64,000 nt of DNA from NCBI GenBank assembly GCA_947184155.2, contig CAMXCT020000314.1, positions 27,986-91,985 on the forward strand, written 5' to 3'. Shown piece by piece: positions 1 to 63,822 of the stretch; positions within the stretch are counted from its first letter, which is position 1; each line of letters starts with the position of its first letter. The DNA comes from Cladocopium goreaui. Lineage: Eukaryota > Sar > Dinophyceae > Suessiales > Symbiodiniaceae. The position numbers and the translations under genes were made by a program. The notes under the pieces are model-generated. The model ran no database searches. It was given only the letters and a program-made list of their open reading frames with translations, and had not been told where the DNA came from.

Positions 1-400
1 TCACCACAGTCTTGAGCCGCGCGACAATGGAAATTTAGTTTGCGATAACAGTGCAGTATTGACATGAAAAAGTTGAAGAACTCGGCTAGGTGGTTCTTGG
101 GTTAGCCATTGCTTGGAAAATGAAATGAACTGGAAACTGAAGGCAGGTACGTGGAGTTGATCAGGCTTCATATCCTTTAGTCAACTGCATGGAGCTTCGT
201 TGGCGACAGCCATGCAGCGACCCCGTCGCACCCTGCAAGTACTGAAAAGTCGTTTGTCGTTTCCACAACTTCGACAAAACAGGTACAGGTTTTACAATGT
301 TTTACATCTATTGAGATGGTTCACACACACGCACACACTCACAACATTGTGACACACAACTCTGTCACACACAGCATGGTCACGCACACACACACACACA
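1..400 (+). repeat. Dispersed 3'-end repeat, copy a (5' truncated by the window edge)
   Basis: This is one of four related repeats, with copies at 33130-33640, 60440-60960 and 62130-62640. Shared landmarks in order are CTTGGGTTAGCC (about 97-108), GCAGGTACGT (143-152), AGCTTCGTTGG (192-203), CCTGC (232-236), and a TTTTACATC...AGATGGTTCACACACA tail near 300-335. A foldable core lies at 90-236 and is listed separately. The tail runs into a CA-rich microsatellite, as in copy c. No coding capacity was seen. In copies b and d this sequence lies directly 3' of minus-strand retroelement genes, so copy a probably marks the end of another element or a solo copy. Confidence 0.75.
90..236. ncRNA. Candidate structured RNA, copy a (hairpin plus pseudoknot)
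   Basis: Plus-strand pairings are: leading hairpin GTGG 90-93 with CCAT 106-109 (one wobble); closing stem GCAGG 143-147 with CCTGC 232-236; small hairpin TGGAG 152-156 with CTTCA 166-170 (one wobble); stem CTGCATGG 185-192 with CCATGCAG 210-217; and loop GCGAC 203-207 with downstream GTCGC 225-229, which makes a pseudoknot. The invariant CTTCGTT sits just before the pseudoknot strand. The other three copies keep every helix with different bases. Function is unknown, and which strand is the active RNA is not settled. Confidence 0.6.
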
Positions 401-6807: not shown

Positions 6808-6814
6808 TGTGCGT

Positions 6815-11772: not shown

Positions 11773-11777
11773 GCTCA
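11770..11777 (-). promoter_or_regulatory. ORF1/ORF2 stop-start junction TGAGCATG
   Basis: On the minus strand the ORF1 stop TGA (11777-11775) is separated by two bases from the ORF2 ATG (11772-11770). Near-overlapping stop/start pairs in non-LTR elements such as SART1 support termination-reinitiation. Here that mechanism is inferred from spacing alone. Confidence 0.55.
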
Positions 11778-13004: not shown

Positions 13005-13740
13005 TGCTGATGCAATAAGGCGCAAAAAGCGCGAGTCTTTGGAATGATGACCGCCAAGGGTTTGCAAGATCTGTTTCAATCTCGTAGGTCCGAGGGGTAG
13101 AATGCCTCTGCGATGCAGGAACCAGGCACGTCTGGCAGCAGCCCTTTTCCTCCGAGAGTGCCTCCTCTGTGTGCCAGTCGCCGTACTGGTAGGCAGGGAG
13201 GTGAATCAAGTCAAACACCAAAGCGTCCTTGAACGAGAGAGCGTAGAAGAAGGCCAGGACAAAAACGCCCACAAACATGTATTGCAGCAAATAAATCGGA
13301 GATCAGTGTGTAAGCCCCGCTTACAGAGATCGATCCAAAGAATTGCCGAATTGCCGAAAAATACCCGGTTTAAGGCAGAGAACCAGGAAGAAACCCGTCC
13401 CAAGACCTACAGTCTCAGGGTGATGACAAAGTCCCCAAGGATGAAGGCGAAGTCCTCGAGGAAGTCAAACTGAGTGAGCAAAGGCGTTGCCTTCCTGCAC
13501 TGGAAAGGCAGAGCGCAAGAAAGAAGGCGCTGCCAACAGCGCCCGCGATCGAAGGCTCACAGCAGCGATCGCTAAGGTCAAAACGGTCAAGCAGAGAGCG
13601 TGGGGCAACCCTGCTAAAGCCGAGACCTTATTTATATATATATATATGTTTAAACCTCCTGCCGAAAAGGAGGTGTACTTATAATCTCCTAAAAAAGAAA
13701 ACACACATCCAGGAACTGCTTTGCTCACAGCTTTGGCACA
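13005..13740. other. LINE 5' leader and flank, no convincing gene
   Basis: The minus-strand DNA upstream of ORF1 should include the element's 5' UTR and promoter. Open frames here start without ATG or have repetitive shadow composition. A TATATATATATATG run lies at 13631-13650, followed by a small hairpin (CCTCC...GGAGG) near 13656-13673. The 5' end of the element could not be placed. Confidence 0.4.
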
Positions 13741-23805: not shown

Positions 23806-24070
23806 TTAGATCTTAAATATTAATATCTCGAGTTGATAAACATAGATAACCAGGGTGGTAAATAGGCCATCCAAAGAAAAAGGAGCAGATAGATAGATAA
23901 ATAGATAGATAGATAGATAGAGATAAAGCAGCCAACGCGGTCCGGAAGACATGCAGCAGCAGTCCGGAGATGGTAAGCAGGAAGGTGTTTCAGAGTGGTT
24001 TCAGACCTCTTTTGGGCTTGTTTTTTGGGTACCCCCAGCTTTGGGAGATGAAAAAAGAAAGAGAAAAGGT

Positions 24071-24111
<41 letters not shown>

Positions 24112-24486
24112 GGAAGAGGGAAAGAGAGAGAGAGAGGAAGATGGAAGATGGAGACAAACAGAAGGCGAGAGGGAGAGAGAGAGAGAGACAGAGAGAGGAA
24201 GAGGGAGAGGAGAGAGAGAGCGTTGTAAATGGTGAGCAGCGGGGTGTTTCAGAGTGGTTTCAGACCTCTTTTTGTCCGTAGGCTACCTCAGCTTTGGAGA
24301 AAAAACAGGAAAAAACGGGAAAAGAAAGAAGAGAAGGGAGAAAGAGACAGAGAGAAAGAAGAAGTCTTGAGACGGTGAGCAGGAAGATGTGTCGAACTGG
24401 TTTCAGACCTCTTTTGGGGCCGGTTATGGGGCTACCTAGTTCTTAAGACATCCAAAAGAAGGGACTCAAAACAGATTGTACTTGAA

Positions 24487-25075
24487 ACACTGCGGTCCGG
24501 AAAGACGTGCAACGGTCCGGAAAAGCAAGCACCCAAAACGTACTCTAATCGTAGCGATTGCGGTCCGGAAAGGCATGCAGCGGTCCGGAAAAGCGAGCAC
24601 CCAAAACGCACTCTAATTGTAGACATTGCGGTCCGGAAAGATGAGCAGCGGTCCGGAAAAGCAAGCACCCAAAACGTACTCTAATTGTAGCCATTGTGGT
24701 CCGGAAAGACCTGCAGCGGTCCGGAAAAGCAAGCACCCAAAACGTACTCTAATTGTAGCCATTGTGGTCCGGAAAGACATGCAGCGGTCCGGAAAAGCAA
24801 GCACCCAAAAGCCATTGTGGTACCTCTAATTAATTGTAGCCATTGTGGTCCGGAAAGACCTGCAGCGGTCCGGAAAAGCAAGCACCCAAAAAGTACTCTA
24901 ATTGTAGATATCGCGGTCCGGAAAGACCTGCAGCGGTCCGGAAAAGCAAGCACCCAAAACGTACTCTAATTGTAGATATCGCGGTCCGGAAAGACGTGCA
25001 GCGGTCCGGTAAAGCAAGCACCCAAAACGTACTCTTATTGTAGACATTACGGTCCGAAAGACATGCAGCGGTCGG
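24487..25075 (+). repeat. 68 bp tandem array, left arm
   Basis: About eight and a half units containing two GGTCCGGAAA boxes, AAGCAAGCACCCAAAACGTA and CTCTAATTGTAG. One unit near 24810-24840 is rearranged. Open frames are due to low stop content. Confidence 0.9.
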
Positions 25076-25397
25076 GAAAAGAGGATAGCACGAGACAGAG
25101 ATGGAGACAAACAGAAGGCGAGAGAGAGAGAGAGAGAGACAGAGAGACAGAGAGACAGAGAGACAGAGAGACAAAGAGAGGAAGAGGGAGAGGAGAGAGA
25201 GAGCGTTGTAAATGGTGAGCAGCGGGTGTTTCAGAGTGGTTTCAGACCTCTTTTTGTCCTTAGGCTACCTCAGCTTTGGAGAAAAAACAGGAAAGAACGG
25301 GAAAAGAAAGAAGAGAAGGGAGAAAGAGAGGAGAGACAAAGCAAGCACCCAAAACGTACTCTAATTGTAGCCATTGTGGTCCGGAAAGACCTGCAGC

Positions 25398-26040
25398 AGT
25401 CCTAATGTCTACAATTAGAATACTTTTTTTTGGGTGCTTGCTTTTCAAGACCGCTGCAGGTCTTTCCGGACCACAATGGCTACAATTAGAGTACGTTTTG
25501 GGTGCTTGCTTTTCCGGACCGCTGCATGTCTTTCTGGACCGCGATATCTACAATTAGAGTACGTTTTAAGTGCTTGCTTTTCCGGACCGCTGCGCGTCTT
25601 TCCGGACCGTAGTGTCTACAATAAGAGTACGTTTTGGGTGCTTGCTTTTCCGGACCGCTGCAGGTCTTTCTGGACCACAATGGCTACAATTAGAGTACGT
25701 TTTGGGTGCTTGCTTTTCCGGACCGCTGCAGGTCTTTCCGGACCGCGATATCTATAATTAGAGTACGTTTTGGGTGCTTGCTTTTCCGGACCGCTGCATG
25801 TCTTTCCGGGCCGCAATGGCTACAATTAGAATACGTTTTGGGTGCTTGCTTTTCCGGACCGCTGCGTGTCTTTCCGGACCGCAATGTCTACAATTAGAGT
25901 GCGTTTTGGGTGCTCGCTTTTCCGGACCGCTGCATGCCTTTCCGGACCGCAATCGCTACGATTAGAGTACGTTTTGGGTGCTTGCTTTTCCGGACCGTTG
26001 CACATCTTTCCGGACCGCATGTGTTTCAAGTACAATCTGT
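25398..26040 (-). repeat. 68 bp tandem array, right arm (inverted)
   Basis: About nine units of the left-arm repeat in reverse complement, with similar divergence between units. Arms and units therefore differ by point changes and are not a perfect recent palindrome. Confidence 0.9.
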
Positions 26041-26829
26041 TTTGAGCCCCTTCTTTTGGATGTCTTAAGAACTAGGTAGCCCCATAACCGGCCCCAAAAG
26101 AGGTCTGAAACCAGTTCGACACATCTTCCTGCTCACCGTCTCAAGACTTCTTCTTTCTCTCTGTCTCTTTCTCCCTTCTCTTCTTTCTTTTCCTGTTCTT
26201 TCCTGTTTTTTCTCCAAAGCTGAGGTAGCCTACGGACAAAAAGAGGTCTGAAACCACTCTGAAACACCCCGCTGCTCACCATTTACAACGCTCTCTCTCT
26301 TTCCTCTCCCTCTTCCTCTCTCTGTCTCTCTCTCTCTCTCTCTCGCCTTCTGTTTGTCTCCGTCTTCCATCTTCCATCTTCCTCTCTCTCTCTCTCTCTC
26401 TTTCCCTCTTCCTCTCTCTGTCTCTCTCTCTCTCTCTCTCTTTCTCCACCTTTTCTCTTTCTTTTTTCATCTCCCAAAGCTGGGGGTACCCAAAAAACAA
26501 GCCCAAAAGAGGTCTGAAACCACTCTGAAACACCTTCCTGCTCACCATCTCCGGGCTGCTGCTGCATGTCTTCCGGACCGCGTTGGCTGCTTTATCTCTA
26601 TCTATCTATCTATCTATTCTAATCTATTCTAATCTAATCTAATCTAATCTAATCTAATCTATCTATCTATCTATCTGCTCTTTAAATGTATTTCCTTGTA
26701 TGTTGTGTTCAAGTCTTTTCTGTCTGTAAATTGTTCTTTTCATCAAGGTCAGCTAGACCCCCCGAAGGGGTCTGAAACCACTCTGAAACCGCTCTGAAAC
26801 CACAGAAGTTCAACACGTGCAGAGCTACT

Positions 26830-33129: not shown

Positions 33130-33640
33130 GCTGTCACACACACTTGCTCAGAAATATCTTATCGAATTACTGATGTGGAATGCATCACACGTGCAAAAAA
33201 CACCTCAGTTATACTTGACAGGAACGGTTTGATGATTAGAAGTGAGAAACTGTGCGAAGGAAAACTTTCTACGTCCTTGATGCAGCTCAGTCAGATTGCG
33301 AAAACCGTACAGGTGAAGACATGAAACTGAAAGGTTTGGTATTGGTTTGAAGCGTGATGAAAAAAGAAATTCGACTGGGAGGTTCTTGGGTTGAGCCTCT
33401 TCCCATCACTGAAAAATGGCAGGTACGTCACGGTGATCAGCCGTGATATCCGCATGTACTGTGGCCGCTTCGTTGGACCATCGCACACGGTACATGGATG
33501 GTCCCCCTGCTGTTGTTTGAAAATCAAATGAAAAACCCAAAAAACGACGTCAAATTGGAAGACCATTGAAGCAAATCATCAAGTTAGAAGTTTTACATCT
33601 TTTCAGATGTTCCACACACACGCCTCGCTGCCGCGAGGCT
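33130..33640 (-). repeat. Retroelement 3'-end repeat, copy b, with terminal hairpin
   Basis: Shares with copies c and d the segment from CACTTGCTCAGAAATATCTT through TTACTGATGTGGAATGCATC, a GCGAAAACCGTACAG box, the structured core (33379-33510) and TTTTACATCTTTTCAGATG before CACACACA. It ends in hairpin GCCTCG/CGAGGC (33622-33639), also in copy d. About 150 bp of further shared sequence leads to the stop of ORF-b, so on the minus strand this is the 3' untranslated end of the second retroelement. Confidence 0.85.
33379..33510. ncRNA. Candidate structured RNA, copy b
   Basis: GAGG 33379-33382 pairs with CCTC 33396-33399. GCAGG 33419-33423 pairs with CCTGC 33506-33510. CACGG 33429-33433 pairs with CCGTG 33441-33445. 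CATGTAC 33453-33459 pairs with GTACATG 33490-33496. The pseudoknot is GGACCATC 33475-33482 with GATGGTCC 33497-33504. The CTTCGTT loop lies at 33468-33474. Every helix except the closing one differs in sequence from the other copies. Confidence 0.65.
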
Positions 33641-33792
33641 TTTTTTTGACGATGTCGAGAAAGTTATCGAAGCTCTTATCTAGGCCCTGACGCAGGAAAT
33701 AGCGATTAACGCAACATCAAAACACAGGGAGGAAATCTGCATTTGAATTATCCGGAAGCTCAGTACGACATCGGCAGGAAGTTCGGGTGTTT

Positions 33793-34728
33793 TCAATCAT
33801 CATCAATGTCCGACAACGCTTCCATGGCCGCCGTCTGCTGAGAAAGAATTTGAGTCGTCACAGCCAAGTGGCTAGCAAGGTGAGCCAAGTCTGCTGCCGA
33901 GAAGACCTGGACCGGATTTGTGCTCAAGTCATCTCCCGGGCTTTCAAGCTTCTCAAGGATCGCAGCATTGGATTCCCTGTCATTGTTGAGAATGTCCCAG
34001 AGGACCGAAGCCAGTTGGTGGATCTGACTTGGTACCGATGCCACGCCAACATTGGCGATGATGGAATCAGTATCGTCCATCTCTGAGCCCGGCATAGACT
34101 CCTGGTTTTGTTCAGGCTGATCAGCATTGTCAGGCGATTGTGGATGTTGATGCCATGAGTATGGCTCATATTCCACCTCAGGAATATTGAAATGCCGACG
34201 CCAGTAATTGGCGAGATAAGTGGATTGCTCCCATGAGTCAATCCATCCATATCGGTCAGCACGAATGTGACCAACAATCCCGTTGAAGAAGAACTCCGGT
34301 TGACGGTGGTGATGTACCCCGTAACGGTCCACTTCCGTTACCATGAGGCTCCTGACTCCCGTTTGAGGAGATCGAACCTCCGTAAAAATGTGAGAATGGA
34401 GTGTTCGATTCTGTCGTTGGATTTCCGTCTGGAGTGGGTAAGCTTCTTCAACTGCCGGCTGTAGCTGAGCCTGATGGGAAGGGTCATCAGGTAGAGGCAC
34501 AGATGAAGATGGTGCGGTATATCCGTACGGTGACGAAATGCCGCTATGAGTATTCTCGGAGAGGGATGGTAGAGACAGATCGTCGGTGATACTGCTGGGA
34601 TGAGGTCTTTGACCGGAGGATGTAGCACCACTACTGGACTGATCTTGAAATCGAGAATGGCGACGTGGCATGCTCATCGGTGCTCGAGGTGAGGTGAAAC
34701 CGGCGAGACAGGAATCACGCTTTGCCAT
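33793..34728 (-). CDS. Retroelement ORF-b, intact 311-residue protein
   Basis: ATG 34728-34726 to a stop at 33793. The N-terminus is MAKRDSCLAGFTSPRAPMSM, matching MTKRDSLLAGF of the second copy at 63690. A Ser/Pro-rich linker is followed by conserved blocks also present in the other copy: LMVTEVDR, EFFFNGIVGHIRADRYGWID, YLANYWRRHFNIPE, LWDILNNDRE and QVFSAADLAHLASHLA. The retained frame and blockwise identity with the diverged copy suggest past selection on the protein. No known domain was recognised. TTGGCTTCAG lies seven bases 5' of the ATG, close to the dinoflagellate spliced-leader end. A pyrimidine-rich linker separates it from ORF-a. Confidence 0.75.
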   Translation of the reverse strand: MAKRDSCLAGFTSPRAPMSMPRRHSRFQDQSSSGATSSGQRPHPSSITDDLSLPSLSENTHSGISSPYGYTAPSSSVPLPDDPSHQAQLQPAVEEAYPLQTEIQRQNRTLHSHIFTEVRSPQTGVRSLMVTEVDRYGVHHHRQPEFFFNGIVGHIRADRYGWIDSWEQSTYLANYWRRHFNIPEVEYEPYSWHQHPQSPDNADQPEQNQESMPGSEMDDTDSIIANVGVASVPSQIHQLASVLWDILNNDRESNAAILEKLESPGDDLSTNPVQVFSAADLAHLASHLAVTTQILSQQTAAMEALSDIDDD

Positions 34729-34853: not shown

Positions 34854-35275
34854 TTATGGAAGCATGTTGCGGTTTGGGAAGGCCTCATGGCAGCCCATGT
34901 GCATGATATAGGGCTGATAGTGAGACGTGAAATATCGAATATTGTTCGGAAGTAAGATGCCGAATTCTTGGCCCTCAGTCCAATGAAGGCGATATTCACG
35001 AAGAAGTTCAATAAGGCGATCTTCGTTGCGGAGAGCGAAAGTGTCTCCAGTCTCGTCTTGCCACCGGATGTCCATTGAAGACGGGGGAAGATAGCGATCC
35101 CACGTGTACCAGATGTGTTGGCTGATGCAATATAGAATATAGCAGGTTGTACACCGTGAATGATTCAAGACGGTGGGTGTTGAGCAAGACGTTGTAGGTG
35201 AACAGAGCACGGTCTTCAGTCCTTCTAAGGGTGGGCAGCACATCACAGGTAGTGGCGTCCATGACATCATCATGG
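34854..35275 (-). CDS. Retroelement ORF-a, C-terminal part (5' truncated)
   Basis: The minus-strand frame ends in TAA (34856-34854). Conserved with the copy at the right window edge are LIELLREYRLHWTEGQEFGI, LLPNNIRYFTSHYQPYIM and HEAFPNRNMLP. Upstream, the frame runs into AT-rich CATTTGGCCGTGAAAAA repeats at 35320-35405 that translate as a nonsense FFTAKWFF pattern, so the true N-terminus is missing or interrupted here. Function is unknown. Confidence 0.65.
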
Positions 35276-36903: not shown

Positions 36904-39900
36904 ATGGCTTCATCGGAAGATGATGATGATGATCGCTTAGATGTATCCCCTGGTGCCCACCAGCGCTTTGTGACTGCTTTTGCGGCTAGCAAAGCCTTGA
37001 AAATTGTAACTTGGTTGTAATTCCTTGGACACCCCATGAATATCAAAGGTGTTGAATCTATATAAAGATATTTGACTGCAGTATTGAAATCATTTTTTCA
37101 CTTAGGTCCCATTGTGTGTTGGGTCTACATCAGATTTGGGATCATAAGCCCAAAACCCAAAACCTGGCCTCTTCACGAATCTTCACGATCCTTCCTGCCA
37201 TCTCCGTCGCCTAGGTTGGGATGACACTGGTCGTCGATCATAGTGGAAGGATTCACGATTCCCGTTCAAAGCCGTCGATCAAAGATATCGTTTGCAACAA
37301 AGAGGACACTGGGTGAACCCAAATAGAGTTTGTTGAAAGCAAACTGAAATTGATATAATCGACATGTTAACGATCCCTCAAGGTTTTGCTGGCTACCATT
37401 CGAGGTTCTGGGGGAAGCCCTCATCTTAGCAAAAAGGTTCTTCAACATGCGATTCTTGAATTCTATTCGCAACACCGATTGCTTCCAGAGGGATGTGTCG
37501 CGGAGATGGCATCTGTCCAAAAATGGGCTTTGAAGTGTGGCACTGCTATCAGACGGTTGGTTCCTTGCACTCAACGGTGCAAACAACTGTATGATGATAT
37601 GTATTTATTTGTAAAACTATTACCAACATAATTACATACATATAACAATATATATATATCATATTATATATAATATATAGTATATATATTGTATTATATT
37701 TGTAAATATTATATATATATTGTTTTGTAAATATGATATTATATTTTATATACATACCATATAATATATATATAGTATGTATTAAATATTTTTAAATATT
37801 CGATATTAAATCTGTAAATAATATATACATATATTATATTATATTTGTTATATATATATATATTACCTGGGTGGCGTTGCGTTCGAAGGGACCTGTAAAA
37901 CCATCAAATTGTTATACATGATGGATCGTTATTTACACAAGATAATCGGTGTAATACCACACACACACACATATGATCCCTGTACGAGTTCACCGGGTTA
38001 GGTTGGGGCCTATGAATTTCTAATAGAAAATGTAAATTGTATAAATTAGGGACCCACGAAAATCTAGCAACAGACATCAAACCAATTTGAGGCATCCTAG
38101 AAAAATGGCATTGTACAATAAGTGTTTTTTCGAAGCTATGTTTAGCATTTTCCTTAGAAAAAAACACCGCCCTACTTGAATTGCATAGTTTTGAAATTAC
38201 GAAATCAAATATGTTAGAAACCACTTCAAGTTACTGCTCCCCTTTTTCTAGAGCCCAACATCCAACCCATCGAATTTCCATCCCATTTCGGTAAAATGTC
38301 ATGGTTTCGAATCTCGTTATCCCCATATGCAAGTTGCCATAAATTGGGTATCCTTGTTTTCAGACGCACCCAAATACATCCAAATATTTTATTGTTGGTT
38401 GCAATGTGTTGTAATTCATCCCAGTTATTCCACAACATGGTTGATTTCCCACAAAAATTACCCTTAAATTATGATTAAACCCATTGCCTCTCTAGAGAAT
38501 CAAGGACCACTAGAAAATCTATGCATGTACTCCCAGAGATGCTAACGTTATGCTTCTGCATTTGGGGCACCTAAACTACCCAGAAAATCAGGATTTACGA
38601 CTCGAGTTGTTCGGTAGAATTGGGGGAACTTCGACAGCATCATTTCAGCAAATTCGAGCTTTTCGAAGGACAGAAAATTAATCAACCCTCCTTAGCGGGG
38701 TTAACCCCCCTGAAATCCTAGAGGAAACTCATACCGGTATCACGTATGTATATATAAATGTATATTTATAGACAGAGAACCCGGTTTGTGAAATCATATT
38801 TGTCTTGGGGCCATTTCCCGCATGACGCAAGGCTTCCAGGCTTCGTCGATTGCTGAAGCGGTCAAAGACTGCCAAGTCAAAACGCCTGACGGAGCTGAAG
38901 GAGGCGGCGCGGAAGGCTGGCTGGAATGTCATTCCAGGTTCCAAGGGAGACTCCAATGCTTCTAGGACACATTATTTTTGTTTGGTGTTCAGGTGCTTCA
39001 ACTTCCAAAACGTTGAATCGCAAATTCCATGAAAACTCAATCCATGAAAGCTCAACTACATGTCATGAAGCCTCCAGCTTGACTTGTATCATCGACGTAT
39101 CCATGATGTTACATTTCATGCAGGGGTCATTGCCATCGCTCAGGTTAAAACCGGGCTTGGTGACGCAGAGGGCCTGAGTGAACTCAGCGCTGCATCGTCC
39201 ATGGGGCCTTCCAGCGATTTGTCGGTGGCATCACTGGGATCCAAGGATGAAAAGTTGGTGAGGGTTGCAAAGCAATTGCAGGCTTTGAAAGTAGCTCTGG
39301 AGACTACCAATCCCATGAAACCTCATGAAAATCCATTGCCAAAAGGTGATGTGGGCAAGGCCGATCGATCTCATGTGAGTGTCATTCCAACCCCGCAACA
39401 GAAGCCAATGTCGAAACTACCAACTGGGGAAAAGGTTTCAGACATCGTTCGCTTGTTGAAGAGCAAACCCACTGCAGCTGATTCGAACAGTGGAGATCCA
39501 GAACAGACTTCCAGGGATGTTTGGAAAACCCACGAATCGGAACAGGAGAACAAGTATGTACTGCCTTCTTATGTTTCTTGGATTATATATTTGTACACTG
39601 GTATAATGCAAGTTTTGATCGATCCACCAGCTAAAGAAAAACATAGCCTATGGTTATGTCATGTCTTCTCTGTTTGGGGTACCAAATCTTACATACAACA
39701 TATTTGGGGAACCAAATCTTGCTTAGCATCCGTTCATTTATGATTCATGATCTTGGTATATCGAATTAAGTATATGAGTTCATCATGCCCAGGTTTTGGA
39801 CTCTTTGGACAAGGTGAAGGGCAACTCTGCGCAACCATTCCCACTTCATGCGAAGTATGTCCCGGCGATCTTGGCTGCGAAAGCTGTGGATGGAAATTGT

Positions 39901-48039: not shown

Positions 48040-48700
48040 AGCCTCGATCACATGCGGCTGACAGGCTCCGATTTTGAGATACCTGACCCTTCGTGACATC
48101 TGGGTCGCTCCCATTAGGTTGCCAGGGGAGACATTGTCAATAGGATATGGGTGAAATGAAAATAGGTATCCAATATCCATCAAAAAAATATTCAAATATC
48201 ATTCCATAAAATGTTCAATCTTTGTCTTGGAATACCCTATTAGTATTTCATAGTGTTTCAAGTCCTGCAGGCAATGTGCTGGCATTTTCTTGGATAATGA
48301 AAGATGGATGGCTGCTGATAGCCTACCATGCGATGGCGCAATTGGGATTCCAAAACCATAGACCATGGCTTCAACAGCCGTGAATGGTGATGTCGCTGGC
48401 CCGCTGGGAAGAAAAAAATCAGGTTCTTGGAGCTCCCATGGAAACGGAATCCACCACCCATATTGTATTCCCCTTGGATTGGTTGTGAATCTTCGCAACT
48501 TTGACCAATCGACCACTGCATTGACATGATTTCGAGGAAACAAACTTTCATGGGATACATCCATGCCCGCGCAGGTGAGCTATTTCCTCAAGCACAGTCG
48601 CTGCTGCGAGACCAGCTCGATGTAGCGTTTCTTGGTAAGGATCCTGATGGGCACAACAACCATCCAATCTTTGTATATTATATATATATATATATTTATT
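48040..48700. other. Unassigned; possible exon or minus-strand frame
   Basis: The minus strand is open for 121 codons at 48564-48199 with protein-like stretches (WWIPFPWELQEPDFFLPSG), and the plus strand has a possible exon around 48538-48633 (YIHARAGELFPQAQSLL). Neither has enough support to choose. Confidence 0.25.
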
Positions 48701-48704
48701 TATC

Positions 48705-49560
48705 TGAGTGGCGTTGCATTCGAAAGGATCTGTAAAAACATCAAATTGCTATACATGATGGATCGTTATTTACACAAGATAATCGGTGTAAAACCACACA
48801 CCACATATGATCCCTGTACGAGTTCACCGGGTTAGGTTGGGGCCTATGAATTTCTAATAGAAAATGTAGATTGTATAAATTAGGGACCCACGAAAATCTA
48901 GCAACAGGCATCAAACCAATTTGAGGTATCCTAGAAAAATGGCAACGTACAATAAGTGCATTTTCGAAGCTATGTCTAGAATTTCCTTAGAAAAACACCG
49001 CCCTACTTGAATTGCATAGTTTTGAAATTACGAAATCAAATATGTGAGAAAGTTACTGCTCCCCTTTTTCTAGAGCCCAACATCCAACCCATCGAATTTC
49101 CATCCCATTTCGACAAAAATTGGGTACCCCCGAATATGTCATGGTTTCGAATCTCGTTATCCCCATTCAAATTGCCATAAATTGGGTAATTATCCCTGTT
49201 TTCAGACGCACCCAAATACATCCAAACATCATATTGTTGGTTGTAATATGTTGTAATTCATTCATGCATGTACTAGAAAACAAAATGACCTGCCAGTGCC
49301 TCGAGAAAATCAAGGACCACGAGAAAATCTATGCACGTATTCCCAGAGATGCTAAAATTATGCTTGTGGATTTGGGGCACCTAAACTACCCAGAGATCAA
49401 GATCTTACGACTCAGAGGTTTCCAAAATTGTTCTGTAGAAAATTGGGGGTACTTCGGAAGCATCATTTCAGCAAATTCGAGCTTTTCGAGTGACAGAAAA
49501 TCAACCCTCCTTAGGGGGTTAGCCCCCCTGAAATCCTAGAGGAAACTCATACCGGTGTCA
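48705..49560 (+). repeat. Dispersed repeat D, copy 2 (intronic)
   Basis: Homologous to 37869-38745 in the same orientation, also preceded by a TATATA tract. It starts GAGTGGCGTTGCATTCGAA and ends CTCATACCGGTGTCA. Small indels distinguish the copies. Confidence 0.9.
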
Positions 49561-52917: not shown

Positions 52918-53605
52918 TTAGTCTTCCGCCTCTGGTTCGTGAGGTGGGTTAACGCGACCGTGTTGGTCCGTTTGTTTCAAGATTCCCCATCTCAGTTTAC
53001 ACACTTGAGGATCGCGGTGAAGTCTGGCTCCGATCGTCTTCCACGAAGGACGGGACTTTGTGTCCTGTTTCATGCTTATCAGCTCTTGATCATCTGCGTT
53101 GGTCCATGGGCGAAATGGTGGGTCACGAGGTGGGTCAGCTGGATTTGGTTGCATGAGACGAAAGGTTGGAGATGGTGGTGCTTTTGGATTTGGTGTCAAT
53201 GTAAGCGTGGAGGTGCCTGGTGCTGGTGCTGGTGCTGGTGGTGGTGGTGGTGGTGGTGGTATGAAGGGCTGCACCGCCTCGATAGCTGACATCATTGTCC
53301 AAGTGATCATGAGCAGAAGCAGCTCCTGATGCTGCGTCGCAGTCGGAGTCATCTGAGTTGAGGCCTCCAGAAGGTGCTTCTGATGTGATGGGAAGTGGGC
53401 CAGGGCGGCCACATCTTTCTGACATCGGGACTCGGGTAACTGGAACTGTCTCCGATTTTTGTTTCTTCTTCGGTTGCGGGTCTTCGGTTGATGAGGCCCC
53501 TTGTTTCGACCGAACCGGAACTGGGATTGTGGATCGAGTGGTGACTCGAGGAGGTTCACTGCTTGCTGAAATGCCCGGAGTTGGATCAATGGCTGGATCG
53601 GTCAT
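52918..53605 (-). CDS. Retroelement ORF-g, Myb/SANT-like DNA-binding protein, one frameshift
   Basis: ATG 53605-53603 overlaps the previous stop as ATGA. The first part reads MTDPAIDPTPGISASSEPP, a basic PQPKKKQKSE patch and an acidic LNSDDSDCD stretch. A one-base frame change near 53290 leads to FIPPPPPPPPAPAPAP and a C-terminal domain: FRPWTNADDQELISMKQD, SRPSWKTIGARLHRD, QVCKLRWGILKQTD. This is a Myb/SANT or trihelix pattern, with W...DD.L...SW..I...L.R....C..RW. A DNA-binding or target-choice role for the element is inferred. The shift lies next to a GTG/CCA repeat that encodes the proline run, a plausible indel site. Confidence 0.65.
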
Positions 53606-54078
53606 GAGAACTGGATTTCCCTGTAATGTGGAGGATGCGTAGTAGTGGGACGCAGGTTGGGTTCAGGATTCACCACCATGTGGGACGGAAGACCTCCATG
53701 TGACACCATGGTTGGTGAAAGCGAAGACGGGGGCAAAGGGACGAAAGTGCGGAGGCCTCTTGAAGATGGACGTTCCAGGCGGAAATGTGATGAGGGCATG
53801 GAATCGTCCCATTCAATGGATGGTTCGAAGAAAGGAAGAAGACCAGCCAAGTGGTTTGGCCCGAGCCAGGTGGTGATGAAATGCACGACCCTGAGCGTGG
53901 TCCATGATGTTGGAACCAAAGAGCAAGAGAAAGCCGGAATGGGGCGAGATTTGAGCCAAGATGCTGCACGAAGAAACCTAAGACAGCATGAGAATGAAGG
54001 GACAAGGAAAAGGCAAAAAGCAAAACCAACGAAAAAGAAAGGAAAAGGGAAGGGAAAACAAGAGAAGTAGAAGCTCAA
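53602..54078 (-). CDS. Retroelement ORF-f, uncertain
   Basis: The frame overlaps the RT stop at its 5' end and the ORF-g start at its 3' end (ATGA). Its first 40 codons are a pyrimidine tract and probably untranslated. Later text is more protein-like (VVHFITTWLGPNHLAGLLPF, FEPSIEWDDSMPSSHFRLER), but there is no early ATG. TTGGCTCAA, like the spliced-leader end, occurs at 53951-53959 on this strand, and an ATG downstream of it is in another frame. The opposite strand is also open. Treated as a weak candidate. Confidence 0.35.
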   Translation of the reverse strand: MSFYFSCFPFPFPFFFVGFAFCLFLVPSFSCCLRFLRAASWLKSRPIPAFSCSLVPTSWTTLRVVHFITTWLGPNHLAGLLPFFEPSIEWDDSMPSSHFRLERPSSRGLRTFVPLPPSSLSPTMVSHGGLPSHMVVNPEPNLRPTTTHPPHYREIQFS

Positions 54079-56135
54079 CGAAGCAAACAGGCAGCGCTGG
54101 TTTGACTTGGCGGCTGACGGTTCTGATGCTGAATCAAAAGTTGATCCGAGATTGTCTGGAGTTCCTCCTTGGGAAAACCAGCACGTGCATACAAATGAAT
54201 TAATTGGGCAAGACCTTGTTGGACACGAAAATCAGGGAAGGCACCCTGAATGACGATGTGGCAGCGCGAGCGAAAGCCACTGAGAAGAACTTTCGGAGGT
54301 GAAGCGGAGAATGGCGACAGGACTTGAGATACATTGGTCGGTCCCTGATAGATCAGCTCAAGTGGTTTGGTTTCAAGCATGAAGCCAAGGAATTCTTGAT
54401 CTGGTTCGGTTTCGAGGATGATGGGTTTTCCATAGAATCCGTCGTCAAGGAGGACTTCATATGGTGCCAATGCAGTGAGGCGTTTGTATCCAAATATGAG
54501 ACGATTGTCAACGTAACGGATGTGTCGAATGAACAAATGATGGTTGGAGAGAAGTTGATGGAAGGTAATGGACTAAATTTGTTCACTGATGGAGACTACC
54601 ATAAGGCATAGGGCAGGTGAGAGAGGACTGCCCATGGGACTTCCTCTGCTTTGACGGACACATCTCTGGCCCAGTGCGAAAGTTTGCATGTTCAGTGCTG
54701 ATTTAATCAGGTCTGGGACATCTTTGATGACAATCTTCCGAGTGACATTGAGGCGGCGGAAAGTGCGTCCTTTGATGATGTCGCCTGGGTTGTTGGATTT
54801 TCCTGGATACACCGAAAAGGCTTCATCATCAGAGACATTCATTTTTGGACGGAGGAAGTCCAAAAGCATGAACCAGGATCTGACGAATCTGTCTTGGTCG
54901 ATGCTGGTGAAGAAGCCCGCTAAGTCCTGATTGACCAGGATTAGGTCGGCATCGACAGGCGCCGATCGCAGAATGGAGAGGAGTGTGTAGACATCCCCTG
55001 TGGCAAAGTGGTTGGGACAGGCGGCTGGAATGAGCTGAAAAATGAGCCTGGCTAGGATGTTGAGCATGGGTCTAAAAGGCGAGTCCACAAAGGAGATGAT
55101 GGGTCGGCCACTGCGGAATTCTTTCTTCCGTTTTGCCAGAATGTAGCCGGATGGGAGTTGACGGCCAGAACCCACTGCCCAAGGATAGGCTTTGCCATGT
55201 TGGCGTTGGAGGGATTCGACAAGTGAGGTCACAATGGAGGATGGTTCATCTGGTAGTTGCTCAAATATTGACGGGTCCTGAAAGGTTTTTTCAATGGATT
55301 GATAGTAAAGACAAGGACAGTAGATGCGAAGGGACGAGGCATGTTTGTCCTCACAGTGGAAGATGGCTCCTTCGAACATGGACTGAAGTTTATTGATGGA
55401 GGACTTCGTGATGTGATTGGTGATCTGTTGGGTGTGTTCGGACCAAAGGTGGTGGCAGAGGTCAGAGATGGGTGCCTGTGGCATGGAAGGTAAGCCATTG
55501 CGTTTCGTCCAGGTCTTGAGACCCAGTCGCATCTGATTATGATATTCCTTCTTGGATGGGAAGACTTTGTTGGACAAGGAACCTTCTGCGATCACTGCCA
55601 GTTCTGGTGGAAGTAAGGAGTGGAGGAGGGAGCCTGATAGGACCCAATGTGGAGCTGAAGGATTGAGAGCTGCAGGTTTGTACGATGACCAAGATTTGCA
55701 ACAGCAAATCGCTGGATTGGAAGTGGACCAATCTTCGATGGCTTGTTTGTGATTGCAGAGTATGTCAAGGACGGCAGCGTGCTTGATGAAAACCATCTTG
55801 AAGGATGGAGTGTGGCACAAATAAAATTTTGGTTGCAGGTTGACAATGTGGGTGAAACGAATATAGACGCTCTGAGGCTGGAAAAATGGTCTGGAGAAGA
55901 GGTTGTGGGAGTGTAGGGTATTACCCCACAGATGGGTGAGATCCGTACATCCTTCCAAAATTGACTTCAGCTTTGGATTGGGTCGAAGACCATGGAGGAT
56001 TGCCAGCAGCATCATGCGTGTCTGGATGATGCGAAAGCCCTGAAAAAGGTGGACGCTGTGAGTCATGGTGAAGGGAGTCAAAATGTAGATGACGAGAGTC
56101 ATCGCGTGGAGGATATGCAAATGGGATTGGAGCAC
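54075..56135 (-). CDS. Retroelement ORF-e: reverse transcriptase with YVDN box and an in-frame TAG
   Basis: Residue numbers count from 56135. The frame covers KRKKEFRSGRPIISFVDSPF (about 335-354), motif A LILVNQDLAGFFTSID (Asp404), motif B QSRGSPMGSPLSPALC (495-510), then TAG at 54575-54573. The same frame continues through SITFHQLLSNHHLFIRHIR to YVDN (541-544) and ends at TGA 54077-54075. GxPMGSPLSP with a following R-Y-V-D box is seen in Penelope-like and related RTs, but the usual second catalytic Asp is Asn here. The N-terminal part probably starts in another frame at about 56175 (SKAQAQGAPIPFAYPPRDD) with a shift near 55990. The TAG sits where Trp would fit. This is RT by motif; current activity is doubtful. 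Confidence 0.8.
54573..54575 (-). other. In-frame TAG between RT motifs B and C
   Basis: The frame is open for hundreds of codons before and over 160 codons after. A single G-to-A change from TGG would give this stop. Readthrough or editing are alternatives. Confidence 0.75.
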
Positions 56136-56171
56136 CTTGTGCTTGAGCTTTCGACGAAGCTGAGGTGCTAG

Positions 56172-57602
56172 TCAATTGGTAAGGCTGATGGCCGCTGTCA
56201 TGGCCTTGAGGAGATTGAGTGCATCATAGTTCTTGCCCAGAAGGGTAACTGGGATGCCCATCATCACGGCAACGCGTGTCACCGTCTCAATTGCCTCTGA
56301 TGGTTGATTCGTCCACCATTCTTCTGTTTTGGCGATGTTGTCCATGAGGACCTTTCTCTTCGGTTCCGACAGTGGAAGATCTTTGAGCCATTTGCTGAAA
56401 GCTCGACCTGCAAGAGTTGTCGGCATATGCTGGGCTAGCCACGGATTGAGTGCAGTCGTCGCAACCAGCAAGGAAGATGGATCGAAGTTGGGTGGCGCAG
56501 GAGGTGCTGGACTGCTGGAGTTCCTCATGAAAGCAGCCTGGATGGGCGTGGCCGGAGGACTGGAAGCAGAGGGTCCTGTGGGACCTGGAGCGGGTGGTGT
56601 GACTGAATCATCACCAAGCTGCTGGCGTAGCTGGGCCAGTTGGCTGCGGAGCTGAGTTAGCTCATGTTGGGTATCAGGATCAGCTGAACGAGTTGGAACC
56701 CAACTATGGATAAGATCAGCAATCTGTTGTGCAGCGTACTTGGTGTTTTGGGTCTTGTCCAGGAACTTCCCATCTTGTCTGGCCTTGGAGGAAGAGACTT
56801 TGTCCAGGTCAACTCCTTTGTTTCGGAGTTGAGTCAATAGTTCCGTCATAAACACCACAGCCGCGATGTCCCCAGTCGGGATTCAGTATAGTTCACGTCC
56901 ATGAGCCAGCTTGCGAAGCCAAAAGTTGTTTGCCTGTTGATACAACAAGGCGGCCACCGGTAATGTCAAAGGATCACACCCTTCGATGTCCAGCTTCTGT
57001 GTGAAGGTAGATTGACGAATGGTCCGGGGAAACGTCAAGCCGTTGATCTTCTGGTTGTCAAAGTGATCTTTGTCCTCTTGCCAGTGAGGATTGAGATCGA
57101 AGCCATATGTCCGGATTTCGTCAGTGGTGGTGTGACCTCCTGGTGAGGTCATGTGTGGAGTTCCCGCATAGCGAGGTTGGGTCGACGGAATGGATGGAGT
57201 GCTCGGTGAAGCAGCTTGAGTTGGTGGACATGGCAAGGTCGGTGAGCAAGGTGGAGAGGCCAAGCGAGGTGGAATTGGATATGGTAGTGTAGGTGGAGGA
57301 GATGCTGGAGGAGCAGGTGGAAATCGTGGAGTGGGTTGGAAGCCCGATGGAGTGGATGGAATCTGACCCGTGGATGGACTCATAAGATAGGCTCCCGACT
57401 GTTGCAAGTTAAACTGAGGTCGAAACTGAGGTCGAGACTGAGGTCGTGACATAATATGTTGTGAGTGCCAGACTGCTGCTTGCATAGGTCCACACCATCG
57501 AGGGAAGAAAGGTAGTTCTTGTCGGACAGGAGGATCTGGAGCTCGAGGTTCAGCACGATTGCGGCCAGGAATGGGAGAGCGCGAACGATCAGAGTCCGCC
57601 AT
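56172..57602 (-). CDS. Retroelement ORF-d, gag-like Pro-rich protein with an in-frame TGA
   Basis: ATG 57602-57600 (MADSDRSRSPIPGRNRAEPR). A Pro/Ser/Thr-rich region follows, then DEIRTYGFDLNPHWQEDKDH, LTFPRTIRQSTFTQKLDIEG and NNFWLRKLAHGRELY, then TGA (56885-56883). The same frame continues IPTGDIAAVVFMTELLTQLR, a QQIADLIHSW segment, HELTQLRSQLAQLRQQLGD (coiled coil), a second Pro/Ala linker and a C-terminal helical region ending in TGA 56174-56172. The composition (Pro-rich, then helical with a coiled coil) suggests a structural or nucleic-acid-packaging protein. The internal TGA also falls where Trp (TGG) would fit. Confidence 0.65.
56883..56885 (-). other. In-frame TGA in ORF-d
   Basis: Flanked by long open stretches in the same frame (239 codons before, 236 after). 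One of three such lone stops in this element. Confidence 0.75.
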
Positions 57603-57941
57603 GGGTGCAAACAGCGAGTTGGATGCTGAGAGGGACAACAAAACTGCAAGATCAAATCAACTCACTCACATTCAAAAAAGAAAGGTCAAAATCGAAATCA
57701 AAAAACAAAAACCAGGAAGATGCAACCTAAGTACGACCTACCAAGATCAGCCATAGAAATGCAGATCAGAATGCCAAACATCCGTAATAACTTTCCAAAA
57801 CAGGAAAAGTGGAACCCAGATTGTGGCAGCCGTGCAATTTTGGTCAAACGCTTGTCCAGGGTGTACCTAGAAAAGTTTCGGAATCCTGTTTAGGCCGAAG
57901 GTAACTAGTAATAAAGAAATCTGCTCAGTGCTGAGGGCCGG
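57603..57941 (-). other. Spacer between ORF-c and ORF-d with pyrimidine-rich tract
   Basis: The minus strand has GGTTTTTGTTTTTTGATTTC and CCTTTCTTTTTTG, then TTGATCTTGCAG about 65 bases before the ORF-d ATG. This is a good 3' splice-acceptor pattern, cis or trans. No coding content was seen. Confidence 0.5.
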
Positions 57942-60439: not shown

Positions 60440-60960
60440 CCGGCATGAGTCACACACTTGCTCAGAAATATCTTATCGAATTACTGATGTGGAATGCATC
60501 GAACGTGCAAAAAACACTCCAGTTAAACCTGACAGGAATGGTTGAATGATTAGAAGTGAGAAACTGTGCGAAGGAAATCTTTCTACGTCCTTGCTCGAAG
60601 GATTTTCTGGTTCTGATGCAGCTCAGTCAGATTGCGAAAACCGTACAGTTGTTTGGTTTGAAAAAAGGTTGAAAAACGACACGCCGGTACTTGGCTTAGC
60701 CGGTCGCCATTGACGGGAAAATGAAATGGTGTTGCAGGTACGTCACCAGGTGTCCCTGGTGATATCCTAGGATCATATGAGGAGCTTCGTTGGATGGAGC
60801 CTCATATGTCCTCTCCATCCCCCTGCTTTTCAATGGACTTGACGACACCGCAAAACGTACAAAACCCGATACCTAGTTAGAAGCAAATTAACATCATGAG
60901 GTAGAAGTTTTTCATCTTTTCAGATGGTCCACACACACACAACTCTTAGTCACACACAAT
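60440..60960 (-). repeat. Retroelement 3'-end repeat, copy c
   Basis: Shares CACTTGCTCAGAAATATCTT, ACTGATGTGGAATGCATCGA, CAGTCAGATTGCGAAAACCG and the structured core with the other copies. It lies on the 5' side of ORF-c, so the same sequence may stand at both ends of the element, like an LTR or the pseudo-LTR of tandem Penelope-like copies. Alternatively it may simply be the end of an upstream neighbour. It lacks the GCCTCG hairpin and instead runs into CACACAA repeats, like copy a. Confidence 0.8.
60684..60826. ncRNA. Candidate structured RNA, copy c
   Basis: CCGG 60684-60687 pairs with CCGG 60700-60703. GCAGG 60734-60738 pairs with CCTGC 60822-60826. CACCAGG 60744-60750 pairs with CCTGGTG 60755-60761. 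CATATGAGG 60774-60782 pairs with CCTCATATG 60800-60808. The pseudoknot is GGATGGAG 60792-60799 with CTCCATCC 60813-60820. This is the best-paired copy, with every listed helix fully Watson-Crick. Confidence 0.7.
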
Positions 60961-61145: not shown

Positions 61146-62115
61146 TGGGCTGGCTCTGGTGCTTTCGTTTTGCATGGCAGGCGGGCACTTGCTCACATCA
61201 ACCTTCGTTTTGCGTGGCAGGCAAGGCACTTATGACACTGGGTTGGATCTGGTGGCGCGCTTGGGCGCCGTTAGTCGCCCGTAGCGCCGCGGCGCTTTGC
61301 GTGGCGTGGCACTTGGCAACACCGATGTTACGTTTGCATGGCAGGCGTGGCGCTTGCTCACATCCACCTTCGTTTTGCGTGGCAAGCGCGGCACTTGTGG
61401 CCGGGCTGGCTCTGGTGGCGCGCTTGGGCGCGGTTAGTCGGCGGTACTTTGCGTGGCAGGCGTGGCACTTGGCGACATCAAATTGAGTTTGCGTGCCGGG
61501 CGTGGCACTTGCTCGCATCAACTTTTGTTTTGCATGGCAGGCGTGGCACTTGCTCACATTAACTTTCGTTTTGCGTGGCAGGCGTGGCCTTTATGACACT
61601 GGGTTGGATCTGGTGGCGTGCTTGGGCGCCGTTAGTCACTAGTCGCCCCTGACGCCGCGGAACTTTGCATGGCAGGCGTGGCACTTGGCGACATCGACCT
61701 TCGTTCTGCGTGGCAGGCATGGCACTTGCTCACATCGACCTTCGTTTTGCGTGGCTGGCGTGCAACTTATGACAGTGGGTTGGCTCTGGTGGCACGCTTG
61801 GCATCGCGGCACTTTGCGTGGCATGGCGTTGCACTTGGCAACATCGACGTTGCGTTTGCGTGGCAGGCGTGGCGATCCACGCTCCAGTTGCGTGGCAGGC
61901 CTGGGTTGACGCTCTCTTTGCGCGGCCGGCGTGACATATGGCACTGTGCAGGGTCCGGTGGTGCGCTTGGGGCCCGCTGGTCGCCGGTGACGCCGTGGCA
62001 CTTTGCGTGACAGGCGTGGCACTTCGTGACATCCACACTCCAGTTGCGTGGCAGGCGTGGGACTTGGTGATCGTGGCACTTATGGCCGGTGGTGCAGGAT
62101 GACGCGGCTTGTGTG
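61146..62115 (+). repeat. GTGGCAGGCGTGGCACTTG tandem array, irregular
   Basis: Roughly 20 units of 40-60 bp share GCGTGGCAGGCGTGGCACTT with CACATC(A/G)ACCTTCGTTTTGC or GGTTGG(A/C)TCTGGTGGC insertions. Frames on both strands are repeat artefacts. Confidence 0.85.
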
Positions 62116-62129
62116 CTTTGGGCCAGGAC

Positions 62130-62640
62130 GTTCACACACTTGCTCAGAAACATCTTATCGAATTACTGATGTGGAATGCATCGAACGTGCACAAACACTT
62201 CATTTAAACCTGACAGGCGAAAATGGATGACTAGGCGTGAGAAACAGTGAAGAAGGATTCTTTCTACGTCCTTGCTAGATGCAACTGTTCCATCTGACGA
62301 AGTCAGCAGTAAATCAGATTGCGAAAACCGTGCAAACAAGAAAGTAAACAGATTGTTGGAAACCGGCTTGGTGGTTCTTGGGTTAGCCACATCCCATGTC
62401 CGAGAATGAAGCAGGTACGTGACAAAGGCGTCCCTTCGTCATATCACCATGGAAAGGCAGTGTCTTCGTTGGTGGATGACTGCCAGACCATGCATCCACC
62501 CCCTGCGCGAAATTGAAACCAGAAAATCATGAACCTTTACAAAAACAAAAGTGCACCGAAGTACCGGATAGAAGTTTTACATCTGTTCAGATGGTCCACA
62601 CACACACGCCTCGCTGCCGCGAGGCTACTTTTTGCCATTT
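62130..62640 (-). repeat. Retroelement 3'-end repeat, copy d, with terminal hairpin
   Basis: Same organisation as copy b: TTGCTCAGAAACATCTTATC at its outer end, the structured core at 62371-62506, TTTTACATCTGTTCAGATGG, then hairpin GCCTCG/CGAGGC (62608-62625). About 110 bp of shared sequence (GCGATTAACGCAA) leads to the ORF-b stop at 62747. Confidence 0.85.
62371..62506. ncRNA. Candidate structured RNA, copy d
   Basis: GTGG 62371-62374 pairs with CCAC 62387-62390. GCAGG 62411-62415 pairs with CCTGC 62502-62506. GACAAAGG 62421-62428 pairs with CCTTCGTC 62433-62440 (one A-C on plus, which is G-T on minus). GGCAGT 62456-62461 pairs with ACTGCC 62479-62484, extended by CATGG/CCATG outside. The pseudoknot is GGTGGATG 62471-62478 with CATCCACC 62493-62500. 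Confidence 0.7.
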
Positions 62641-62746: not shown

Positions 62747-63690
62747 TCAGAACGCCTCGTCGGAAAGTGCCTCCATTCGAAGGGCTTGATCTGACAATGT
62801 GCGGGTAGATTCTGCCAGGTGACTGGCAAGATGAGCCAAGTCTGCTGCCGAGAAGATCTGGACCGGATGTCTTGTCAGGTCATCATCTGGATCCTCGAGT
62901 CGTTCGAGTATTGCCATGTTGGCATCCCTGTCATTGTTGAGAATGTTCCAGAAGAAGGTTGCCAGTTGTTGAATCTGGACAGGTGGTGGAGTAATGTCCA
63001 CATTGGCGGTGATGGAGTCGGTGTCATCCATGCCGGATCCTTGTACGGATACTGGGCTTTCTGGAGCTTCATGGTGATAGGGATGCCAATTTCCATCCGG
63101 GGAAATTTCTGGAATTTGGAAATAGCGACGCCAGTAGTTGGCAAGTTGGGAGGATTGATCCCAAGAGTCAATCCAACCGTTTCGACCAGCACGAATGTGG
63201 CCGATGATCCCATTGAAGAAGAACTCCGGCTGCCTGTTTCGATGGCACGTCGATCCACTTCCGTCACCATAAGTCGGCGAAGTGCCGGTTGGGAATTGTC
63301 AGCTTGAGGTGTTTGAACCTCGACAAAGTAGTATGCGTGAAGCTGACGGCGAGTTTCTGCCAATTCCATCTGGAGTGGATAAGCTTCGTCTGCAAGTCTT
63401 GGAAGAATTGGAGTCTGGTGATCGGCAGGAGCTGGGATGGGTGTGGCCGTGTCTGCCGTTGAGTACCCATAATGGGATGTATGGTCACCTGATCCTGCAG
63501 GTAGGATGGAAGGCCCAGCATCAGGAGCTGTGGGATCAGTGTCACTGCGAGAAGGAGTAAATGGGTCCGAAGGAGCAGCAGTGCTACTGGGATGTCCATG
63601 ACTACGAGATCTCCATGAGTAACGACGTGGCATGCTCATGGAAGATGACGGGTACGTGAAGCCAGCAAGCAGGGAATCACGTTTGGTCAT
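62747..63690 (-). pseudogene. Retroelement ORF-b, second copy, one frameshift
   Basis: ATG 63690-63688 (MTKRDSLLAGFTYPSSSMSM). The N-terminal half is open to about 63240 (LMVTEVDRRA), where a one-base shift moves the conserved blocks (EFFFNGIIGHIRAGRNGWID, QLANYWRRYFQIPE) to another frame. A third change is possible before MDDTDSITANVD, which runs through FFWNILNNDRDANMAIL and QIFSAADLAHLASHLAE to a stop at 62747. It is homologous throughout to 33793-34728. TTGGCTCCAG lies eight bases before the ATG. Confidence 0.75.
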
Positions 63691-63822
63691 GGTACAGCTG
63701 GAGCCAAGTGCTGAAAAGGAGCCAAGAAGGTTTAAACAAAACCAAAAAAGAGACCAAGGACAAGAACACGAACAAGAAAACCAAAAACAAGCCGGCAATG
63801 CAAAGGAACTTTTTTGACCATC

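Follow-up and report, generated by a model that had tools for sequence, protein, structure and literature searches.

A pseudoknotted RNA module near the 3′ ends of putative LINE-like mobile units in the dinoflagellate Cladocopium goreaui

A 64,000-nucleotide stretch of the Cladocopium goreaui genome (hereafter the window) contains four copies of a structured RNA module whose stems differ in sequence between copies and still pair. We propose that the copies belong to LINE-like mobile units, in which they form a structured 3′ module, and that the minus strand of the window is the sense strand. Copies 2 and 4 sit 3′ of two conserved open reading frames (ORF1 and ORF2) on the minus strand. By analogy with known retroelement tails, and at about even confidence, we favour the reading that a reverse transcriptase (RT) supplied in trans recognises the module, which would act as a structured 3′ tail.

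A pseudoknotted core in four copies

The core (GCAGG...CCTGC) is 94, 92, 93 and 96 nt long in copies 1–4, respectively, and the exact strings GCAGGTACGT and CTTCGTTGG each occur four times in the 64-kb window (both strands searched), invariably together. The four copies that an earlier note on this DNA had described, with their shared strings, loop and CCTGC end, are all present at the places it gave. The parts of each copy lie as follows:

143–236, minus strand: copy 1 structured core, with a 5-bp pseudoknot and an imperfect side hairpin
90–109, minus strand: copy 1 H3, with three Watson–Crick pairs and A·C (G·U on the plus strand)
305–318, minus strand: copy 1 H0 hairpin, adjoining a GT-rich run
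33419–33510, minus strand: copy 2 structured core, which also has translated relatives in the protein database
33379–33399, minus strand: copy 2 H3 (GAGG/CCTC)
33137–33316, minus strand: copy 2 3′ tail with the shared boundary
33596–33609, minus strand: copy 2 H0 hairpin
60734–60826, minus strand: copy 3 structured core (P1, pseudoknot, inner stem, side hairpin, loop AACGAAG, junctions GATA and CGTA)
60684–60703, minus strand: copy 3 H3 (CCGG/CCGG)
60451–60650, minus strand: conserved 3′ tail of copy 3, whose end at the shared boundary reads GTGTGTGA
60913–60926, minus strand: copy 3 H0 (CATCT/AGATG)
62411–62506, minus strand: copy 4 structured core
62371–62390, minus strand: copy 4 H3 (GTGG/CCAC)
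62133–62334, minus strand: copy 4 3′ tail with the shared boundary
62580–62593, minus strand: copy 4 H0 hairpin

Read on the minus strand, the core runs GCAGG, PK1, P3a, PK2, AACGAAG, P3b, GATA, side hairpin H2, CGTA and CCTGC, and its pseudoknot is of the H type, with S1 of 5–8 bp, S2 of 6–9 bp and L3 of 9–15 nt including AACGAAG. The pseudoknot strands PK1/PK2 are GCGAC/GTCGC in copy 1, GGACCATC/GATGGTCC in copy 2, GGATGGAG/CTCCATCC in copy 3 and GGTGGATG/CATCCACC in copy 4; those of the inner stem P3 are, in the same order, CTGCATGG/CCATGCAG, CATGTAC/GTACATG, CATATGAGG/CCTCATATG and GGCAGT/ACTGCC. The strands of H2 in copy 3 are TCACCAGG/CCTGGTGA. Because P1 (GCAGG/CCTGC) is identical in all four copies, it is uninformative on covariation. 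The leading hairpin H3, with a conserved loop of 12–13 nt, lies between the core and the 3′ tail, and the H0 hairpin (stem CATCT/AGATG identical in the four copies, loop changing) lies at a variable distance upstream of the core. The order in the RNA would thus be H0, a variable spacer, the core, H3 and a conserved tail ending in GTGTGTGA.

The linker between PK1 and P3a measures 0 nt in copy 2 and 4 nt in copy 3. Because copy 2 has no linker, its full inner stem and its pseudoknot would be poorly compatible, such that one helix would have to fray; pairing seen by eye just below P3 in copies 1, 3 and 4 may represent an alternative state.

The longest Watson–Crick helix at each anchored place was compared with those of shuffled segments, with the anchors kept fixed. 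In copies 1–4, this helix measures 5, 8, 8 and 8 bp for the pseudoknot, 8, 7, 9 and 6 bp for the inner stem and 2, 6, 8 and 4 bp for the side hairpin. The Fisher-combined P values for pseudoknot, inner stem and side hairpin are 6.9e-9, 2.1e-7 and 2.4e-6 under base shuffles and 8.9e-8, 7.1e-6 and 2.5e-4 under dinucleotide shuffles (for which the 3′ segment of the inner stem was base-shuffled instead); they are optimistic because anchors and helices were picked post hoc, and they come from four copies, too few for R-scape. Strands swapped between copies give off-diagonal helices of 2–5 bp in the pseudoknot, 3–5 bp in the inner stem and 1–4 bp in the side hairpin. Because most strands pair better with their own partners than with swapped ones, the copies share anchors and differ in stems, and those stems still pair. 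The assertion in the earlier note that the helices differ yet pair is thus borne out for these three helices, which exceed shuffles and mostly fail when strands are swapped.

Copy 1 is the weakest copy. Its side hairpin alone is not significant (P = 0.22 and 0.51), the 5′ strand of this hairpin forms 3 bp with the 3′ strand of copy 4 versus 2 bp with its own, and the minimum free energy (MFE) folds of copy 1 disagree with the model on both strands. Single-strand folding z-scores are modest, from −0.8 to −3.9. Identity among copies 2–4 is 57–62% in the core, compared with 80–93% in the last 180 nt, and pairing is nonetheless kept. A MAFFT alignment of the four cores leaves the helices out of register, and anchored counts were used instead. 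A descriptor scan of the window for looser copies returned 23 places, the four known copies among them, and was too loose to inform.

Element boundary and adjoining open reading frames

Copies 2, 3 and 4 share one sharp end, at positions 33137, 60451 and 62133 (within one base in a second comparison), and the flanks beyond it are unrelated. The terminal letters were checked for short terminal tandem repeats: copy 2 reads GTGTGTGTGA, and copies 3 and 4 both read GTGTGTGA. From core to shared end there are 278–283 nt in copies 2–4, and from H3 to the same end 233–242 nt; these three copies have a conserved structure near a retroelement 3′ end, as do the tails of stringent-type LINEs and SINEs. 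The 3′ end of copy 1 falls outside the window. Homology between copies 2 and 4 runs in pieces from this boundary through ORF2 and part of ORF1, as far as 35031 and the window end, respectively. The reading frames are:

33793–34728, minus strand: copy 2 ORF2, 311 amino acids (MAKRDS...), no assigned family
34854–35270 (right end approximate), minus strand: copy 2 ORF1 remnant, N terminus missing, apparently with one frame break
62750–63690, minus strand: copy 4 ORF2, frameshifted over two frames (62750–63298 and 62878–63822)
63823–64000, minus strand: C-terminal end of ORF1 in copy 4, incomplete because the window stops there

In copy 2, the N terminus of ORF1 is absent and replaced by other sequence at about 35270, a loss that looks like the 5′ truncation of retrocopies; this is a single truncation point in a window without an intact unit, and the 5′ ends of the other copies lie outside the window or were not placed. 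No target-site duplication was recognised by eye at copy 2, and no direct repeats flanking a unit were noticed in the repeat comparison of the window. The shared boundary and the loss of the ORF1 N terminus together support the placement of the structure at a retroelement end, as the earlier note had it.

The module is common to units with ORFs (copies 2 and 4) and to GT-rich or minisatellite neighbours (copies 1 and 3), and copies 1 and 3 may be truncated units. Both border GT-rich runs and share a minisatellite unit, found once at 415–457 and several times within 61371–62070. By eye, the TTGCGTGGCAGGCGTGGCACTTG-type minisatellite extends over 61150–62100; the one similar unit at 415–457 lies beside copy 1.

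ORF2 has 251 database relatives at E ≤ 1e-3 (best 120 of 251 examined), and ORF1, for which the query was a joined sequence, has 130 at the same threshold (best 120 of 130 examined). The ORF2 sequences of copies 2 and 4 differ at codon positions 1, 2 and 3 in 42, 25 and 85 cases over 159 codons; because these differences fall mostly at the third position, the minus strand is the coding one. Many of 21 aligned ORF1 relatives begin with MAHSS and finish with PNRNMLP. Neither ORF1 nor ORF2 shows a convincingly recognised domain. Pfam has no family for the ORF2 of the window at E 1e-3, the sole match being DUF5810 at E 0.093, under its cut-off. Among six ORF2 relatives compared with Pfam, P0067 narrowly passes DUF6643 (28.2 versus 27 bits) and P0019 falls below, and 21 ORF1 relatives match two families weakly, once each (E 0.037 and 0.063). 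A sequence search of the PDB gave no match. The AlphaFold model of ORF2 is poor (pLDDT 46), and a fold search from it, with no match at E ≤ 0.001, is not counted as evidence.

Ahead of the ORF2 start in copy 4 lies a T-rich tract with AG and CTTGGCTCCAG (63691–63800, minus strand), possibly a trans-splice acceptor or a spliced-leader relic. With its CTTGGCTC(C/A)AG, the tract resembles the dinoflagellate spliced-leader relic CCATTTTGGCTCAAG (PMC12014239), in keeping with a dinoflagellate host. Of 30 N-extended relatives, many read ALGSS or similar before ORF2. Between ORF2 and the module, copies 2 and 4 also have a GC hairpin, GCCTCG..CGAGGC (33621–33647 and 62607–62630), which adjoins a T run on the plus strand (an A run on the minus strand) and is absent at copies 1 and 3; we considered hairpin and T run as a candidate plus-strand terminator.

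Further loci read through protein databases

A chance open frame across the core of copy 2 (window 33294–33575, minus strand) served, as protein, as the query of a protein search, which returned 19 database proteins (E 4e-14 to 1.5e-3) that share all or part of the translated core and little else. P0246 and P0254 share flanks, as do P0247, P0248 and P0256, so the 19 proteins represent about 16 contexts. These further copies are known as translations, and by search design they belong to a subfamily close to copy 2. By eye, H0 is found upstream, beside a GT run, in about 8 of the 19 loci (as VCVxHLxRCKTS and in other frames). A structured RNA can therefore be found in protein databases via chance open frames.

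At each pair, the bases that the protein sequence dictates were set against those of copy 2. P0241–P0256 yield 17 forced cases, of which 9 must pair, 5 can and 3 cannot; the misses are one each in P0251 (possibly a one-base indel), P0254 (in the pseudoknot) and P0256 (in the inner stem). P0257–P0259 yield 11 (2 must pair, 3 can, 6 cannot), with two misses in P0257, part of whose core is gone by internal deletion, and four in P0259, which is unlike the inner stem of copy 2 next to its own start codon; P0258 is cut short. Over all 19 proteins, 11 of 28 forced cases must pair, 8 can and 9 cannot. The further loci add two pair-preserving double changes, both in the inner stem: pair 18–51 goes from A-U to G-C in P0248, with G·U in P0247 as a visible intermediate, and pair 15–54 goes from U-A to G with C or U in P0252. 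No forced double change in the pseudoknot comes from the database loci, and its covariation rests on the four window copies.

H3 is readable in 12 of the 19 loci, where 24 variable pairs comprise 13 certain, 11 possible and no broken ones, with the pair types GT/AC, CC/GG, GA/TC and GG/CC. The window copies keep 7 of 8 such pairs, copy 1 having A·C. Pooling the database loci and the four window copies gives a shuffle P of 1e-5, as low as this test can go, and an 11-sequence subset gives 2e-5 or less; frames were chosen by eye from loop words, and these P values ignore relatedness of the loci. Selection on RNA structure, as the earlier note had argued from paired changes, is thus supported by window copies and by database loci (inner stem and H3), although some pairs are broken.

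Pattern scans of viral contigs for the module returned 1 and 11 matches, all unlike it, and two more scans returned none. Protein scans of viral and genome contigs gave 29 and 68 pattern matches, none confirmed as the module, and a pattern scan of genome contigs gave zero.

Proposed function, alternatives and known systems

We hypothesize that the module is bound by the RT of an autonomous element, acting in trans, which would start target-primed reverse transcription at the GU-rich 3′ end. One enzyme in trans would account for a module that follows ORF units in copies 2 and 4 and repeat-rich stretches in copies 1 and 3, and recognition by it would let stems drift while pairing and loop letters stay. 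Of the three functions that the earlier note had offered (self-cleaving ribozyme, RT-recognition structure and translation element), the one that agrees best with position and context is RT recognition. None of the units was found to contain a reverse transcriptase, and the trans-acting enzyme is hypothetical; RT-like ORFs occur elsewhere in the window, with no link to the module shown.

Because the constant distance to the end, the two contexts and the conserved loops on drifting stems resemble the signals of LINEs and R2 SIDEs, we read the module as an RT-recognition structure. In stringent LINEs, the LINE protein binds a 3′ stem-loop, whose loop is decisive for ZfL2-2 binding, and the tail is shared with SINEs (PMC4176376). 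The module is like UnaL2 and ZfL2 tails in being a conserved structure near the 3′ end of a retroelement (PMC4176376). Whereas those tails have one stem-loop, the module has a pseudoknotted core of several helices that lies about 280 nt upstream of the end. The UnaL2-type tail stem-loop lies nearer the end than the module core does.

R2 SIDEs are described as mobilised via a structured 3′ UTR with compensatory changes, and the fold of the R2 3′ UTR as needed for binding by the R2 protein; as with the module, compensatory changes keep the fold in autonomous and non-autonomous units (PMC3414825). Unlike R2 and its SIDEs, the module has no Rfam match; neither an RT in the unit nor an rDNA target was seen, and two ORFs of no assigned family are present. 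The R2 HDV-like ribozyme resembles the module as a pseudoknotted RNA in a non-LTR element. HDV-like topology differs from that of the module, in which a closed helix holds an H-type pseudoknot and a side hairpin. The R2 ribozyme is reported to sit at the 5′ junction (PMC3774820). Retrozymes and hammerhead retroelements are similarly non-autonomous and multi-copy, with a small structured RNA (PMC4918200), whereas the module has no hammerhead match in Rfam and no noticed flanking direct repeats, and copies 2 and 4 are protein-coding. On the RT-recognition reading the module would work like LINE and SINE 3′ signals; it is not filed as a member, as the partner RT was not found.

Compact pseudoknots, a closed outer helix and short conserved single strands are usual in small ribozymes, and the core, at 92–96 nt, is pseudoknotted and has a closed outer helix and the short conserved single-stranded AACGAAG, GATA and CGTA. 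Retroelements also often carry ribozymes. It is nevertheless improbable that the core is a new class of self-cleaving ribozyme processing the transcript of the element, as HDV-like and hammerhead ribozymes of other retroelements do: no Rfam model, ribozymes included, matches; the core lies off the element boundary, 278–283 nt before the 3′ end in copies 2–4; no cleavage site suggests itself; and there is no positive evidence for self-cleavage. Very unlikely, by our estimate, is a new self-cleaving or otherwise catalytic RNA in the 3′ UTR of a two-gene non-autonomous dinoflagellate retroelement, whose cleavage would set the 3′ end for the RT. A control element of the 3′ UTR (for translation, stability, 3′-end formation or nuclear export) with no role in reverse transcription would suit the distance of about 240–280 nt from the ORF2 stop to the module in copies 4 and 2, and the seemingly polycistronic unit, in which ORF2 is preceded by a T-rich tract containing AG. 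We consider it unlikely: copies 1 and 3 and at least P0250 follow GT-rich repeats, no such ORF being seen beside the module, and a role in mRNA alone leaves these loci unexplained.

The minus strand is, with high probability, the functional one. It is favoured by the coding ORFs, the 3′-end boundary and the truncation, and because this strand carries the conserved ORFs next to copies 2 and 4, the plus-strand reading of the earlier note is probably antisense. If the plus strand were functional instead, the module would form a SINE-like element, about 490 nt long, with TCACACACTTGCTCAG at its start and the H0 stem-loop plus a (CA)n tail at its end, the ORFs being neighbours. In keeping with this, copies 1 and 3 and several database loci have, on the plus strand, a CA-rich run of variable length after H0, wobble-type pairs in the window copies favour plus by eye (three, versus one for minus), and the MFE folds of copies 2–4 are more mutually concordant on plus than on minus. 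Against it, the homology of copies 2 and 4, which takes in the ORFs and stops at the far end of the element, would be a coincidence; on minus, the unpaired positions that are conserved are rich in A (13 of 27 listed letters); and linkers of 0 and 4 nt in copies 2 and 3 would be worse for a plus-strand pseudoknot. Moreover, forced single changes at inner-stem pair 18–51 in 6 of the 16 proteins P0241–P0256 (about four contexts) give G·U on minus and A·C on plus, and the certain wobble pairs of the database loci favour minus. G·U pairs alone do not settle the strand. We regard the SINE-like reading as improbable. A still lower probability attaches to an origin without RNA function, by inverted-repeat drift or a DNA structure (a cruciform or recombination hot spot): DNA-level copies are few and the window is rich in repeats and palindromes, but the helices cross, are anchored and covary, loop letters are conserved and further loci exist.

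The Rfam scan of the whole window at E ≤ 5 gave nothing over any of the four modules, and for copies 1 and 4 it is the Rfam coverage. The copy 3 module alone gave no match at E ≤ 10, and the copy 2 module alone gave four (E 0.23–9), none over the core and all far below cut-off. Hammerhead, HDV-like and other Rfam RNAs were rejected as there was no covariance-model match to the modules, in agreement with the earlier note, which had seen no hammerhead core by eye. No paper among those listed in the literature searches describes the element or the RNA in its title or abstract. The fold is new to the sources used; structured tails of retroelements are a known kind. Detailed knowledge of the RNA signals through which a retroelement enzyme chooses its own RNA exists for few LINEs. 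A compact, pseudoknotted, covarying module found behind protein-coding units and in repeat-rich sequence would offer a non-animal case open to testing, in a lineage whose genomes are very rich in repeats, and it points to two protein families without assigned function that travel with it.

Elsewhere in the window, a LINE-like run of ORFs (1761–13302, minus strand) has endonuclease-like (PF03372, E 0.022) and RT-like (PF00078, E 0.025) matches, both under Pfam cut-offs. Copy 1 lies 1.5 kb downstream of this run; we considered copy 1 as the 3′ end of this neighbouring LINE, with 1.3 kb between them unexplained. A chain of minus-strand ORFs at 52918–57656 includes a divergent RT-like piece, RGSPMGSPLSP (RVT_1, E 0.14). 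A large imperfect inverted repeat at 23900–26618 has arms of up to 355 nt at 95% and consists partly of 68-bp tandem units, and a direct repeat of about 0.9 kb (37835–38742 and 48674–49560), 83% identical, is unrelated to the module.
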